From positions 1 through 15,325 of the forward strand of contig CAMWZE010000007.1 of the NCBI GenBank assembly GCA_947178685.1: a DNA stretch of 15,325 nucleotides. The letters run 5' to 3'. Positions 8,577 to 14,995 of the stretch are shown here, piece after piece. Position 1 is the first letter of the stretch. Every line of letters begins with the position of its first letter. Under the pieces are notes generated by a model, which saw nothing but the letters and a program-made list of their open reading frames with translations, made no database searches and was not told where the DNA came from. This DNA is from an uncultured Porphyromonadaceae bacterium. Lineage in GTDB: Bacteria > Bacteroidota > Bacteroidia > Bacteroidales > Muribaculaceae. The translations under genes were made by a program, and so were the position numbers.

Positions 8577-9908
8577 TCAGACCTTCAGGTTGAGTGTAAT
8601 CTTCCCCCCCGGTTTTGCGGCCGCCCCTTTCGGGAGCGACTGCCACACCACGCGCCCGGTTCCCTTTAGCTGAACGGAAAGGCCACGGCTCTCGAGAATC
8701 TTCACAGCCGACGGGGCGTCATATCCGATTACGTTAGGCACAATGTCGAGATAAGCGCTGTCGCTTGCGGCCACGGCCTTGGCCTTGCGGGCACCGGTGA
8801 TTCCGAGAGAAGAGATCAGCTTACCGGGTTCATATTTTTCAGAGGCGCAGAACACCGGTTGAGAAGGTATTCTGGTAGATGTGAACGTGGATGTATTGTT
8901 TAGCAGTCCGCGGGAGAACATTTTTACAGCCATATTCTTCACCACCTGTCCGGATGTTCGGTTGGCGCTTGTGCCGGCGGGCCCGAGCACGAGAGCCATG
9001 CAGGAATATTTCGGTTTGTCGTAAGGGAAGAAACCGGCGAAAGCATATCGGCGTTTTGAGAGGTTGTAAGACCCCTTCTCAACGGGGTAAGCCGTTCCTG
9101 TCTTGCCAACCACTTCCACGCGGTCGTCGCGCACAGCGCGTGCGGTTCCATGTTCCCCCCACACCACTTCGCGGAGGCAGATCTTCACCTTCTTGGCCGT
9201 CTCCTCCGAGCAGATACGGTCGCGGATATAGTCAATCGGAAGCACTGAGTCACGACCCTCCTCATTTAGGAGCGAGCTAACGAGATGAGGACGCACATAC
9301 CGGCCACCGTTAGCAATTGCGTTATAGATGGAAAGTGTGTAAAGCGGCGGAATCTCCGTGTTGTAGCCATATGCCTGACGGGCGAGGTCAAGATGGCGCG
9401 ATGTCATCGTGATGTTGTTGCCACGGCTGTCTTTGGGGAGAAGCTTGCGTATGCGGGGGATACACTCTCCGGCAATACCGGAATGCATCGGTTCGAAGAA
9501 CCCGATAGAGGAGAGACGCTCATGGAAGGCGGCAGGGTTGCTCTCATAGCCACGGAATATTACCCTGGCGATACCCGTATTCGACGACATCTCGATCACC
9601 TGCTTCATGTTTTTTACAGATGGGGCGTGAGGATCGGAAGTGCGCTGGAAAGGGGAACAATCCACCATTTCGTTGACGCTTCTCACGAGACCATCCTCGA
9701 AAGCGATCATCAGAGAGATCGGTTTCATCACCGAACCCGGTTCGAAAGGTAGCACGGCCCGGTTCAGAGCCTCACCGTAAGTGCCGTCTTTGAGGAGCTC
9801 GATATTTGAGATAGCTTTAATCTCTCCGGTTGCCACCTCCATTAGAATGGCAGTTCCCCATTCGGCTCTTGATTCGGAGCAGATATTGTAAAGTTCCTCT
9901 TCAAGCAT
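8577..9908 (-). CDS. FtsI C-terminal fragment (transpeptidase and PASTA domains)
   Basis: This is the open frame after the internal stop. Its first ATG is at 9908, 13 codons beyond the stop. The 443 residues contain the complete transpeptidase fold: SVMK with the nucleophilic serine at fragment residue 59, SSN at 108-110, KTG at 269-271, and then the PASTA domain from about 391. If re-initiation occurred here, the product would lack a membrane anchor and a signal peptide and would stay in the cytoplasm, away from its substrate. The AGGA before this ATG is only one base away, too close for a good ribosome-binding site. I therefore doubt that this is a functional separate gene; it is the second part of ftsI. 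Confidence 0.7.
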   Translation of the reverse strand: MLEEELYNICSESRAEWGTAILMEVATGEIKAISNIELLKDGTYGEALNRAVLPFEPGSVMKPISLMIAFEDGLVRSVNEMVDCSPFQRTSDPHAPSVKNMKQVIEMSSNTGIARVIFRGYESNPAAFHERLSSIGFFEPMHSGIAGECIPRIRKLLPKDSRGNNITMTSRHLDLARQAYGYNTEIPPLYTLSIYNAIANGGRYVRPHLVSSLLNEEGRDSVLPIDYIRDRICSEETAKKVKICLREVVWGEHGTARAVRDDRVEVVGKTGTAYPVEKGSYNLSKRRYAFAGFFPYDKPKYSCMALVLGPAGTSANRTSGQVVKNMAVKMFSRGLLNNTSTFTSTRIPSQPVFCASEKYEPGKLISSLGITGARKAKAVAASDSAYLDIVPNVIGYDAPSAVKILESRGLSVQLKGTGRVVWQSLPKGAAAKPGGKITLNLKV

Positions 9909-9947
9909 ATCCTGAAGGTCGATGTCGATGGTGGTGTGAATGTCGAA

Positions 9948-10706
9948 TCATCTCACCGGATCCTGCGCCACCCAATTAGAGATGCCGGAAGTGAGAGCCA
10001 CCTTCTTTGAGAGACCCGGCTGTCCGTAAAGGAGAGAGTCAAGGTCTTTCTCCAGCCCGGAGTATCCGTGAAACTCACCGGTATTCTGGTTTTCGTTAAC
10101 GCGCCCGATGCTACGGTAAGCCATTCTGCCGTAAGGATAAATTCTGACATTCTTCTCCTCCTTATAGACCGGGATTCTGTATCCGCTTCCCTTGAAATCT
10201 TTGAGGTAAGGGAAGTTGCGTATCATCTTGAAGTCTTCGAGGGTCTTTTTGGCAGCGAGGCGCAGAGCGCGGGGCCTTTTGTCGGGATCCTTTTCAAACT
10301 CCTTTTTCAGGCGTGTGTGCCAGGAATATTTCTTGAAAGTGTCAGGGTGCTGGTTAAGTTTCCTCACACGCGGGAAATAATAGTCGAGCGAGTCGGCGAG
10401 ACTGTCGATCTTAGCCCAAGGGATATTGGTTTCCTTCATCACCTTGTTGTGGCGGAGGTCGAGCTTAATGTCGTAAACCTTCAGGTTGCATGCGAGAATG
10501 TTGCCGTTGGAAGCGAGTATATTTCCACGTTCAGGCGCTATGACAGTTGTACGCGACAATTCCTTGTGAGCCCGTTCGTTCCAAGCGGCGGCGTCGACCA
10601 CGGTAGTTTGGAAAAGTTTCCAGACTATACCGGCCGAGAAAATGAGGAAGGCCATAATGATAAGGCCGTATCGGAAAAGTATATGGTTTTTATTGTTCTG
10701 CTTCAT
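9948..10706 (-). CDS. FtsI N-terminal fragment (membrane anchor and pedestal domain)
   Basis: This is what would be translated if the TGA at 9948-9950 acts as a stop: 252 residues from ATG 10706. It has a short basic cytoplasmic tail, a membrane helix (GLIIMAFLIFSAGIVWKLF, about 14-32) and the periplasmic pedestal domain, but none of the catalytic motifs. Alone it could be inserted in the membrane but could not cross-link peptidoglycan. It might still occupy the FtsI site in the FtsQLBWI complex. The start is 22 bases after the stop of the FtsL-like gene, with no strong ribosome-binding site. Confidence 0.75.
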   Translation of the reverse strand: MKQNNKNHILFRYGLIIMAFLIFSAGIVWKLFQTTVVDAAAWNERAHKELSRTTVIAPERGNILASNGNILACNLKVYDIKLDLRHNKVMKETNIPWAKIDSLADSLDYYFPRVRKLNQHPDTFKKYSWHTRLKKEFEKDPDKRPRALRLAAKKTLEDFKMIRNFPYLKDFKGSGYRIPVYKEEKNVRIYPYGRMAYRSIGRVNENQNTGEFHGYSGLEKDLDSLLYGQPGLSKKVALTSGISNWVAQDPVR

Positions 10707-12358: not shown

Positions 12359-14275
12359 CTACAGGATCCTAATCAAAATATCCAGATTCTGAGGGGCAAT
12401 TTCTTCGTCAAGTATCTTCTTGCTTATCGCTTTTCTTCTTGCCACCATAGTACTCTTGCCTCTGTTTGTAAGAGTAGCTAACTGTTGTGGCTGCATACCT
12501 AAACGTATGAGGAGTACGGTTTGAAGTTCCAAGGAGGAAAGATTTCCACCTGATAGCATGTTAATCGTTTTGATAAATTCTGGAGATATCGTGGTGATCA
12601 GATTCCGAATCTGTTCCCAACTATCATCGTCATCCTTAATTGGCTTTTTATCGTTTAACCTTGATTGAATAAAACTGTATATATTTGAGTTTAGAATTTC
12701 TGAAGGGATTGCAGGCAATTCCTCATTATTGTCAATGAAAGTCTTTAGTTTATTTTTTATATCAGATCGCAGTTCATTGATGGAGGGTCGGTTATTGACC
12801 GATGAAGCAGGATGCATGCCTGTTGGATCAGCGTTATTTAAGATAAGGGGATTTGTTTTTTCTGTATAGCCGTTATCCGGGGTGTTTCCATTTTTACTTT
12901 CGGATAACTCCATAATCTTTTGTCTGAGAACGGCAATCTCCTCATTCTTCTGATTTGACTGTTCGACAAGTTGACGATTTAGAGCACCCGCTTCCTTATC
13001 CTTACGATCCGATATGTCTTTAAGTTTCTGCCGTAATGATGTAATCTCCTGCTCCTTATGATGGGATAGATCCTCAAGCGTATGTCGCAATAATCGAATT
13101 TTTTTTCGCTGCCTACCAAAGCATAGAAAAGATAAAGTATTTGAAATCAGTAGCAGAAATGCGAGAGAAAGTACCCATTTAATAAGACTTGAGTTTACTT
13201 GTGATGTCTCTTCCTGACTCTTTACGTGTTTTGAATAATTATAGCTAGTCTGCTGCATTAGGGCGGCTTGATTGGCATTCTCATCCAGATATGATTCCAT
13301 GCCATCCGAGTACTCATCGATGTAAGTATTTAAAGAATCAATGGGAATTCTCGGTCGTATCTCGGGAGAGATAAGGATACGGTAGCCGATTCTTTTGTTT
13401 ATATATTCCGGGTGGTGTATAAGCCTTTTAGCCATTACATAAGCGGAATCAAGCATCCCGGCTCTGTAATAAATTTGTGCCCTATAAGCTAATATATCAC
13501 TCGATTCATCATTAGTTAAGGCTTTCCCTTCATTCTGGATAATACGTAAAGCCTCATTAATATTTTCGGTTTTGTACTTGGTTACTGCGAGAAGCACAAA
13601 TAAATTCCGTCTTTTCTCTTCCGGCAGGCCGTCGTTTTTTAACGTCTCGACAATAAGATTGTTTGCAAGAGAGAAATTATTATTATAGATATGGTTGTAG
13701 ACTAAAGCCATAACGTCTTCCGGTAGGGTTGATGTGTCCTTCAGGTTATGATCAATATCCACGACCTCTGTCAGATACGTGTTGGCTTCATCATGCAATC
13801 TCAACCTATTTAAAATATTTCCTGTTTGGCTTAGTATATTTGCTCTGAATTTAAGGTGGTCGTTACTAACGGGTAGATTATCGGCAGCTTTCCGAAAGAA
13901 ATCAAGGGCTGTGGGTAGATCTCCGAGGTCGGAGTAAACACGTCCACCGTAATATAGTGCTTCGGGGTAGTACGGGTCTTCCTTATGAGATTCGAAATAA
14001 TCCAGAACATCAAGGATAAGGCTGTCGGAGGTATGGGTGATGTATGCTTTATCGGAAGCCTTTATGATGAGGAGATCCCTAATGTGACGGGAATCTTTGT
14101 CAAGGGAATCCGGATTTATCTTTTTGAGTTCTGAGAGAGCCTTGTTAGGACTCTCCTCTATAGTCCGGTTAATGGCAAGGAGCCTTGGGTCAGATGTGTG
14201 GCGTGTACACGCCATCAGCACCATAATCAGTATGGTGAAGACAGGAGTAAATGAAGATTTATAATGCTTACGCAT
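12359..14275 (-). CDS. Lipoprotein-TPR-transmembrane-HTH regulator (638 residues)
   Basis: This is probably a membrane-spanning one-component regulator of the kind common in Bacteroidetes. In order: a signal peptide with lipobox LMAC and Cys23 as the predicted lipidation site; helical TPR-like repeats (about 30-300), including a repeat with ALYYGGRVYSDLGDLPTALD (106-125); a membrane helix (WVLSLAFLLLISNTLSFLCF, 367-386); a basic stop-transfer and coiled coil (about 389-460, with repeats of the ITSLRQKLKDIS type); a polar linker; and a C-terminal helix-turn-helix (about 579-622, with ELQTVLLIRLGMQPQQLATL). TPRs should lie in the periplasm and the HTH in the cytoplasm. The ligand and targets are unknown. 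The ATG at 14275 gives a complete signal peptide. The gene is more AT-rich than the dcw genes and flanked by a 28-bp direct repeat. It sits directly upstream of rsmH, so the dcw operon is one possible target, though proximity alone proves nothing. Confidence 0.85.
   Translation of the reverse strand: MRKHYKSSFTPVFTILIMVLMACTRHTSDPRLLAINRTIEESPNKALSELKKINPDSLDKDSRHIRDLLIIKASDKAYITHTSDSLILDVLDYFESHKEDPYYPEALYYGGRVYSDLGDLPTALDFFRKAADNLPVSNDHLKFRANILSQTGNILNRLRLHDEANTYLTEVVDIDHNLKDTSTLPEDVMALVYNHIYNNNFSLANNLIVETLKNDGLPEEKRRNLFVLLAVTKYKTENINEALRIIQNEGKALTNDESSDILAYRAQIYYRAGMLDSAYVMAKRLIHHPEYINKRIGYRILISPEIRPRIPIDSLNTYIDEYSDGMESYLDENANQAALMQQTSYNYSKHVKSQEETSQVNSSLIKWVLSLAFLLLISNTLSFLCFGRQRKKIRLLRHTLEDLSHHKEQEITSLRQKLKDISDRKDKEAGALNRQLVEQSNQKNEEIAVLRQKIMELSESKNGNTPDNGYTEKTNPLILNNADPTGMHPASSVNNRPSINELRSDIKNKLKTFIDNNEELPAIPSEILNSNIYSFIQSRLNDKKPIKDDDDSWEQIRNLITTISPEFIKTINMLSGGNLSSLELQTVLLIRLGMQPQQLATLTNRGKSTMVARRKAISKKILDEEIAPQNLDILIRIL
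14199..14214. promoter_or_regulatory. 16-bp perfect palindrome near the start of the regulator gene
   Basis: TGGCGTGTACACGCCA reads the same on both strands. It begins about 60 bases inside the coding region and overlaps the lipobox codons. A perfect palindrome of this length could be an operator for a dimeric HTH protein, perhaps autoregulatory, but nothing else in the window shares it and the coding sequence alone could explain it. Confidence 0.25.
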
Positions 14276-14596: not shown

Positions 14597-14995
14597 TTAG
14601 AGGTTGAGAGTGGCAAGCATATCAGGTATGATTTCATGGTTGGCTGATAAGAGCCGTTTTCTCAGCCGACATCTTGCAGTGTACACCGCTTGTTTTGATG
14701 GTCGGCCGGTAAGAAAAGCGATGGAGGTGGAAGAGAATCCGAGGTAGAGCAGGATTACGAGCTGACGGTCAGCCGGAGTAAGATATGGACAAGCTTTGTC
14801 AAGACGGCTCATCCAATTACGGTTGTTGAGGTTTATCCATTGTTCCATTTCCGAGAATAATCCTTCGGTGCGGAATTCTCCGACCATATTCTGTTGGGGA
14901 GTTACCGATTCCTTATTTTCGAGAAGAGAAGCTTTTGCAAAAAGACGGGAGTAAATCCCGTCAAGCAGTGAAATCTGGAGATTGGAAGAGTGCAT
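14597..14995 (-). CDS. Small HTH protein, similar to the C-terminal domain of TPR regulators
   Basis: I cannot assign a named family. The 132-residue protein has a polar N-terminal half (1-60) and a C-terminal helix-turn-helix (about 72-115), with LTPADRQLVILLYLGF (72-87), IAFLTGRPSKQAVYTARCRL (92-111) and a basic RKRLL tail. The same pattern (L..... LQ.V.L...LG.....A.LT.R) occurs at the end of the 638-residue regulator, so the two are probably distant paralogues. This one has no TPRs, signal peptide or membrane helix and should be a soluble DNA-binding protein. It starts at ATG 14995, 42 bases after the transglutaminase-type gene, and may be co-transcribed with it. It may also be a regulator that has lost its sensor half. 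Its last ten codons recur at 12264-12297. Confidence 0.75.
   Translation of the reverse strand: MHSSNLQISLLDGIYSRLFAKASLLENKESVTPQQNMVGEFRTEGLFSEMEQWINLNNRNWMSRLDKACPYLTPADRQLVILLYLGFSSTSIAFLTGRPSKQAVYTARCRLRKRLLSANHEIIPDMLATLNL
14600..14627. repeat. 28-bp direct repeat, copy B
   Basis: This copy is the 3' end of the 132-residue gene (codons for PDMLATLNL). It pairs with copy A at 12270-12297 in direct orientation, with 27 of 28 bases identical. Confidence 0.85.

Follow-up and report, generated by a model that had tools for sequence, protein, structure and literature searches.

Does the in-frame TGA that interrupts ftsI in this 15,325-nucleotide stretch of DNA (hereafter, the window), which derives from an uncultured Porphyromonadaceae bacterium, belong to the living organism or only to its assembled sequence? 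The two answers carry different prior expectations: where an essential gene has a single copy, fixation of a nonsense mutation should be rarer even than an error. Weighing the conservation of the interrupted codon, the selection acting on either side of it, the meaning of UGA and the gene content of related genomes, we conclude that the internal TGA is most likely an erroneous base in the assembled consensus of a normal, single-copy and essential ftsI. Two things here are inferred: the error itself, and the single-copy, essential status of ftsI in this organism.

An interrupted ftsI in a dcw cluster

The minus strand of the window contains a dcw cluster comprising rsmH (mraW), ftsL, ftsI, murE, mraY, murD, ftsW, murG and murC, which is the usual dcw order. 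The features of ftsI that bear on the question are as follows.

8577-10706, minus strand: ftsI, encoding the septal transpeptidase, a class B penicillin-binding protein; 709 residues in a single frame that is interrupted by a TGA at codon 253
9951-10706, minus strand: first part of ftsI, 252 residues, with a hydrophobic N-terminal stretch (by eye, the anchor) and the PBP dimerisation domain
9960-9962, minus strand: codon 249 (Asp), also unique to the window; all 127 homologues have Pro or Ala here
9948-9950, minus strand: in-frame TGA, codon 253, where aligned relatives encode glycine
8577-9947, minus strand: second part of ftsI, with the transpeptidase domain (SVMK, SSN, KTGT) and the PASTA domain
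8577-8579, minus strand: terminal TGA of ftsI; 66 of 78 loci end at the same residue, 27 of those with TGA

An earlier note on this DNA held that the two halves of ftsI lie in one frame and together give a 709-residue protein with the expected motifs, and this is how the minus strand reads. The PBP_dimer domain (PF03717) precedes the TGA, and the Transpeptidase (PF00905) and PASTA (PF03793) domains follow it, as do SVMK (residues 325-328), SSN (374-376) and KTGT (535-538), which we take to be the SxxK, SxN and KTG motifs of class B penicillin-binding proteins. That a single TGA splits the gene is also correct, codon 253 being the sole internal stop. The gene thus has the dimerisation and transpeptidase domains in one frame, the three motifs, and the ftsL-ftsI-murE position of a class B penicillin-binding protein, but its reading frame is interrupted. 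In length, domains, motifs, dcw neighbourhood and protein end it resembles the FtsI, or PBP3-type, proteins of Bacteroidota (PF03717, PF00905 and PASTA), and a full-length relative of 709 residues (P0002) is 93% identical to it; it is unlike full-length Bacteroidota FtsI in having a TGA at codon 253 and an unusual residue at 249.

Elsewhere in the window, positions 12359-14275 encode a 638-residue protein with weak TPR matches and lie in a stretch whose G+C content is 0.39-0.44, as against about 0.48-0.56 in the adjoining cluster. No mraZ was recognised among the window proteins scanned, and in one of the compared loci (L003) a glycosyltransferase-like gene (by eye) precedes rsmH instead. A 132-residue open reading frame at 14597-14995 has no Pfam or NCBIfam match, and its end resembles, by eye, that of the adjacent 638-residue protein, which is helix-turn-helix-like.

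The interrupted codon lies at a glycine invariant among the relatives compared

The proposal that relatives of FtsI have glycine at the interrupted site is borne out in both of the sets that we compared. The codon-253 column is Gly in all 127 homologues (P0002-P0128, the best-listed of 3,106 and 612 scoring proteins, with P0129-P0167 outside the comparison) and in 77 of the 77 genome loci that cover it, from a set of 78 (L001-L078). With P0002 as the query against solved structures, the same Gly aligns with Gly in the PBP1 chains 7o49 and 8vbt, presumably from Staphylococcus. The nearest loci, L001 and L002, come from two metagenome-assembled genomes labelled uncultured Porphyromonadaceae (93% protein identity over the second half of FtsI, and 80% DNA identity over ftsI), and many of the other compared loci are labelled Muribaculaceae, so that the window may be called Muribaculaceae-like. 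In both L001 and L002 the glycine codon is one base away from the TGA of the window, in agreement with the earlier suggestion of a single-substitution change.

No stop occurs at this column in any of the 127 homologues, the 77 loci or the 101 genomes whose match spans it. If the TGA were a programmed site of read-through or recoding, we would expect relatives to have kept it, and those compared have not.

The departure at codon 253 also stands alone within the window. Over 2,679 residues of seven genes, compared among up to 78 loci (L001-L078 only, at columns with at least 40 sequences, and omitting murC and murG, to which the loci had no match), the internal TGA is the single position at which the window departs from an otherwise invariant column; other loci have from 0 to 26 such departures each. 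Because it is the only singleton of the window at an invariant column in so many residues, the departure is more than would be expected by chance.

Stops also appear inside six alignments of other genes and in none of ftsI: in murD and ftsL of L025 (at 10 and 127), in murE of L071 (at 5), in mraW of L005 (at 305), and, within insertions, in murE of L022 and L023. These lie mostly near gene ends or in insertions and are probably tblastn alignments that run past the gene.

Selection on either side of the stop

If ftsI had been inactivated long ago, the sequence beyond the stop should have been released from constraint. The two halves of the gene are, however, equally constrained: pN/pS before and after the stop is 0.074 and 0.070 relative to L002, 0.071 and 0.070 relative to L001, 0.176 and 0.175 relative to L003, and 0.157 and 0.182 relative to L006, these ratios being rough in that synonymous sites are almost saturated (pS about 0.7) and a very young lesion would leave no trace in them. 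Among neighbouring genes compared with L002, the corresponding values are 0.062 for murD, 0.063 for mraY and 0.057 for murE, and 0.173 for ftsW (247 aligned residues), 0.168 for ftsL and 0.174 for mraW. An old pseudogene was accordingly rejected, since relaxed selection is absent.

Only four of the 709 positions of the window FtsI hold a state found in none of the 127 homologues (D249, the stop, L480 and I613), and the three of these that are residues, as opposed to the stop, match the median number of private residues in the homologue set. Given the equal constraint on the two halves, the small number of private residues and the lone departure from an invariant column, the stop is either spurious or of too recent an origin to be accompanied by other traces.

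UGA almost certainly retains its ordinary meaning

A further reading is that UGA encodes an amino acid in this lineage, whether glycine, selenocysteine or another residue. What speaks for such a reassignment is the glycine at this column, since Absconditabacteria and Gracilibacteria read UGA as that residue; according to PMC8629427 these two groups account for the bacterial UGA-to-glycine changes known as of 2021, and PMC13092985 gives the same two for its own data. Unlike in that code, TGA in the window is the ordinary terminal stop of five genes (ftsW, murD, ftsL, mraW and ftsI itself), and there is only one internal case. Among the 66 of 78 loci that align to the end of ftsI, the codon after the last residue is TGA in 27, TAA in 25 and TAG in 14. 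Among recognised genes of the window ftsI alone is split (murC, murG, ftsW, murD and mraW cover their families nearly end to end), although the finding of no internal stop in the 11 other window genes follows from the way in which open reading frames were listed.

RF2 (prfB) was present in all eight relatives that were searched, from the set of 111 genomes described below, with seven above the cut-off and the eighth at a contig end. In none of the eight did a tRNA-Sec exceed the cut-off, as it did in 5 of 14 control genomes; all eight had weaker matches, which are probably other long-arm tRNAs. Within the window itself we found no tRNA gene and no Rfam match at gathering score, and the 81 bases around the UGA have no notable fold (z -1.14; 33 of 200 shuffled sequences fold as well). 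Neither the fold around the UGA nor the tRNA-Sec result in relatives lends selenocysteine any support. With TGA terminating five window genes and RF2 in eight of eight relatives, recoding is untenable, and we regard reassignment of UGA as next to inconceivable; the suppression that had been suggested for the case of a real stop likewise finds no support in the window or in the relatives searched.

No support for a second FtsI or a split enzyme

A broken ftsI might be tolerated if another septal transpeptidase served as back-up. We searched 111 genomes listed as one genus with P0002 and obtained matches in 110, of which eight were weak, and are probably PBP2-like, and 102 were strong, the same number being returned by a separate search. 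Five of the strong matches are partial or split between contigs (G052, G084, G090, G095 and G106), that of G090 starting after the codon-253 column. An internal stop was found in the strong FtsI match of none of the 102 genomes, and, among the matches listed, a second FtsI match above 32 bits was found in no genome apart from the contig-split G095 and G106. Among the weak matches listed, two second matches include a TGA (G096 C6 and G032 C28; 20-23 bits); these are not FtsI, and their alignments probably run past the gene end.

With the Transpeptidase family as query, G001 and G002, from which L001 and L002 come, each yielded a single match, as against three apiece for G003 and G004; the single matches perhaps reflect incomplete genomes.

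The alternative that ftsI is genuinely split or dead, with a second septal transpeptidase in reserve, draws on the presence of an internal ATG, the first past the TGA (9908, residue 267), which could begin a second product. Such a product would have no membrane anchor and would stay in the cytoplasm, and since the septal transpeptidase acts outside the membrane, a restart at residue 267 would not rescue function. A split enzyme, with all catalytic motifs after the stop and apart from the anchor, is implausible and was rejected; restart at the ATG that overlaps the TGA was also set aside, as it lies (by eye) in a different frame. Because there is, in addition, no relaxation of selection and no close second FtsI in the relatives searched, we consider this alternative extremely unlikely, and neither the second copy nor the divided enzyme that the earlier note had entertained for a real stop gains support.

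Copies of the gene deposited as two products were also sought in a protein database. The 252-residue query retrieved 39 proteins, none above 82% identity, and the 443-residue query retrieved no product of that length among the best 120 of 612, in a database that is clustered at 90% and has the window's own products also unlisted, so that this search cannot show absence. One FtsI relative of 588 residues (P0122), from a 6,441-base contig and with no dimerisation domain listed, is perhaps an interrupted or misassembled ftsI.

A recent nonsense allele or a wrong base

There remain two ways in which an isolated stop could come to lie in an otherwise ordinary gene. In the first, the stop is a genuine nonsense mutation that arose very recently among the bacteria sampled, and either natural read-through of UGA or a suppressor mutation supplies enough full-length FtsI or the sequence comes from a sub-population that is dying. 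The frame past the stop is intact and constrained, and a mutation that arose just a few generations ago could not be told from an error by its appearance. Against this reading are the essentiality of ftsI (a matter of general knowledge), the absence of the stop from the relatives compared, the glycine that extends to the PBP1 chains, and the unremarkable structure of the RNA after the UGA.

The main published support for a real allele comes from Belinky et al. 2021 (PMC7918605), who describe in-frame stops under low dN/dS as widespread in bacterial genes and UGA as a leaky stop; in prfB+ B. subtilis, one TGA construct was read through at 6%. The likeness to our case is a single stop in a gene of low pN/pS; however, their set comes, by their own account, from reliably annotated genomes, whereas ours is one unreplicated record of a gene taken as essential, and the same paper counts sequencing errors among four sources of such stops. 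We judge a recent nonsense allele to be unlikely, and it is highly unlikely that a wild gut population makes its essential FtsI solely by UGA read-through, with the dose set by translation termination.

The second way, a wrong base, is the most likely explanation, given that the relatives compared are intact and that there is no decay around the stop. A private, single-substitution change to an ordinary ftsI would then have entered the consensus and not the organism, possibly because the library was damaged, because depth was low or because a defective molecule in the minority was taken up, and the living organism would most likely produce a full-length, ordinary FtsI. Of the branches that the earlier note had set out, base error is thus the best fit, and among those in which the stop is real only read-through of a very recent mutation retains some small probability.

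How often would such an error be expected? In 11 window genes, 3.6% of all single substitutions, and 11% of G-to-T substitutions, create a stop; under assumed rates of 1e-5 and 1e-4 errors per base, 0.005 and 0.05 nonsense errors are expected in the window. That figure is small for a single window though ordinary across a scan of many, and the error explanation thus depends on this window having been chosen because it looked odd. No other signs of error were seen in the window. D249 lies four codons from the stop. For any of the three unique residues to fall this close by chance has a probability of 0.033 (post hoc), and the proximity weakly hints at a locally poor consensus.

As to the specific cause, the substitution is G:C to T:A, a class that oxidised guanine can give. 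Oxidised-guanine damage from shearing has been reported in an NCG context (PMC5521083); the context here is not NCG, and we do not favour this as the specific cause although the class fits. A GGATCC lies near codon 249, but a scar left there by cloning or ligation was rejected, there being three such sites in the window and no support for it. We found no literature that treats metagenome-assembled genomes, premature stop codons, sequencing errors and pseudogenes together.

Implications

For annotation, the consequence is that automated gene calling would yield two genes in place of one, so that an essential gene would count as broken. The stop is most likely an assembly error and not new biology. 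If the base were real, this would be a natural instance of an essential division enzyme lying behind a nonsense codon, and would allow a direct test of how wild gut bacteria tolerate leaky termination.
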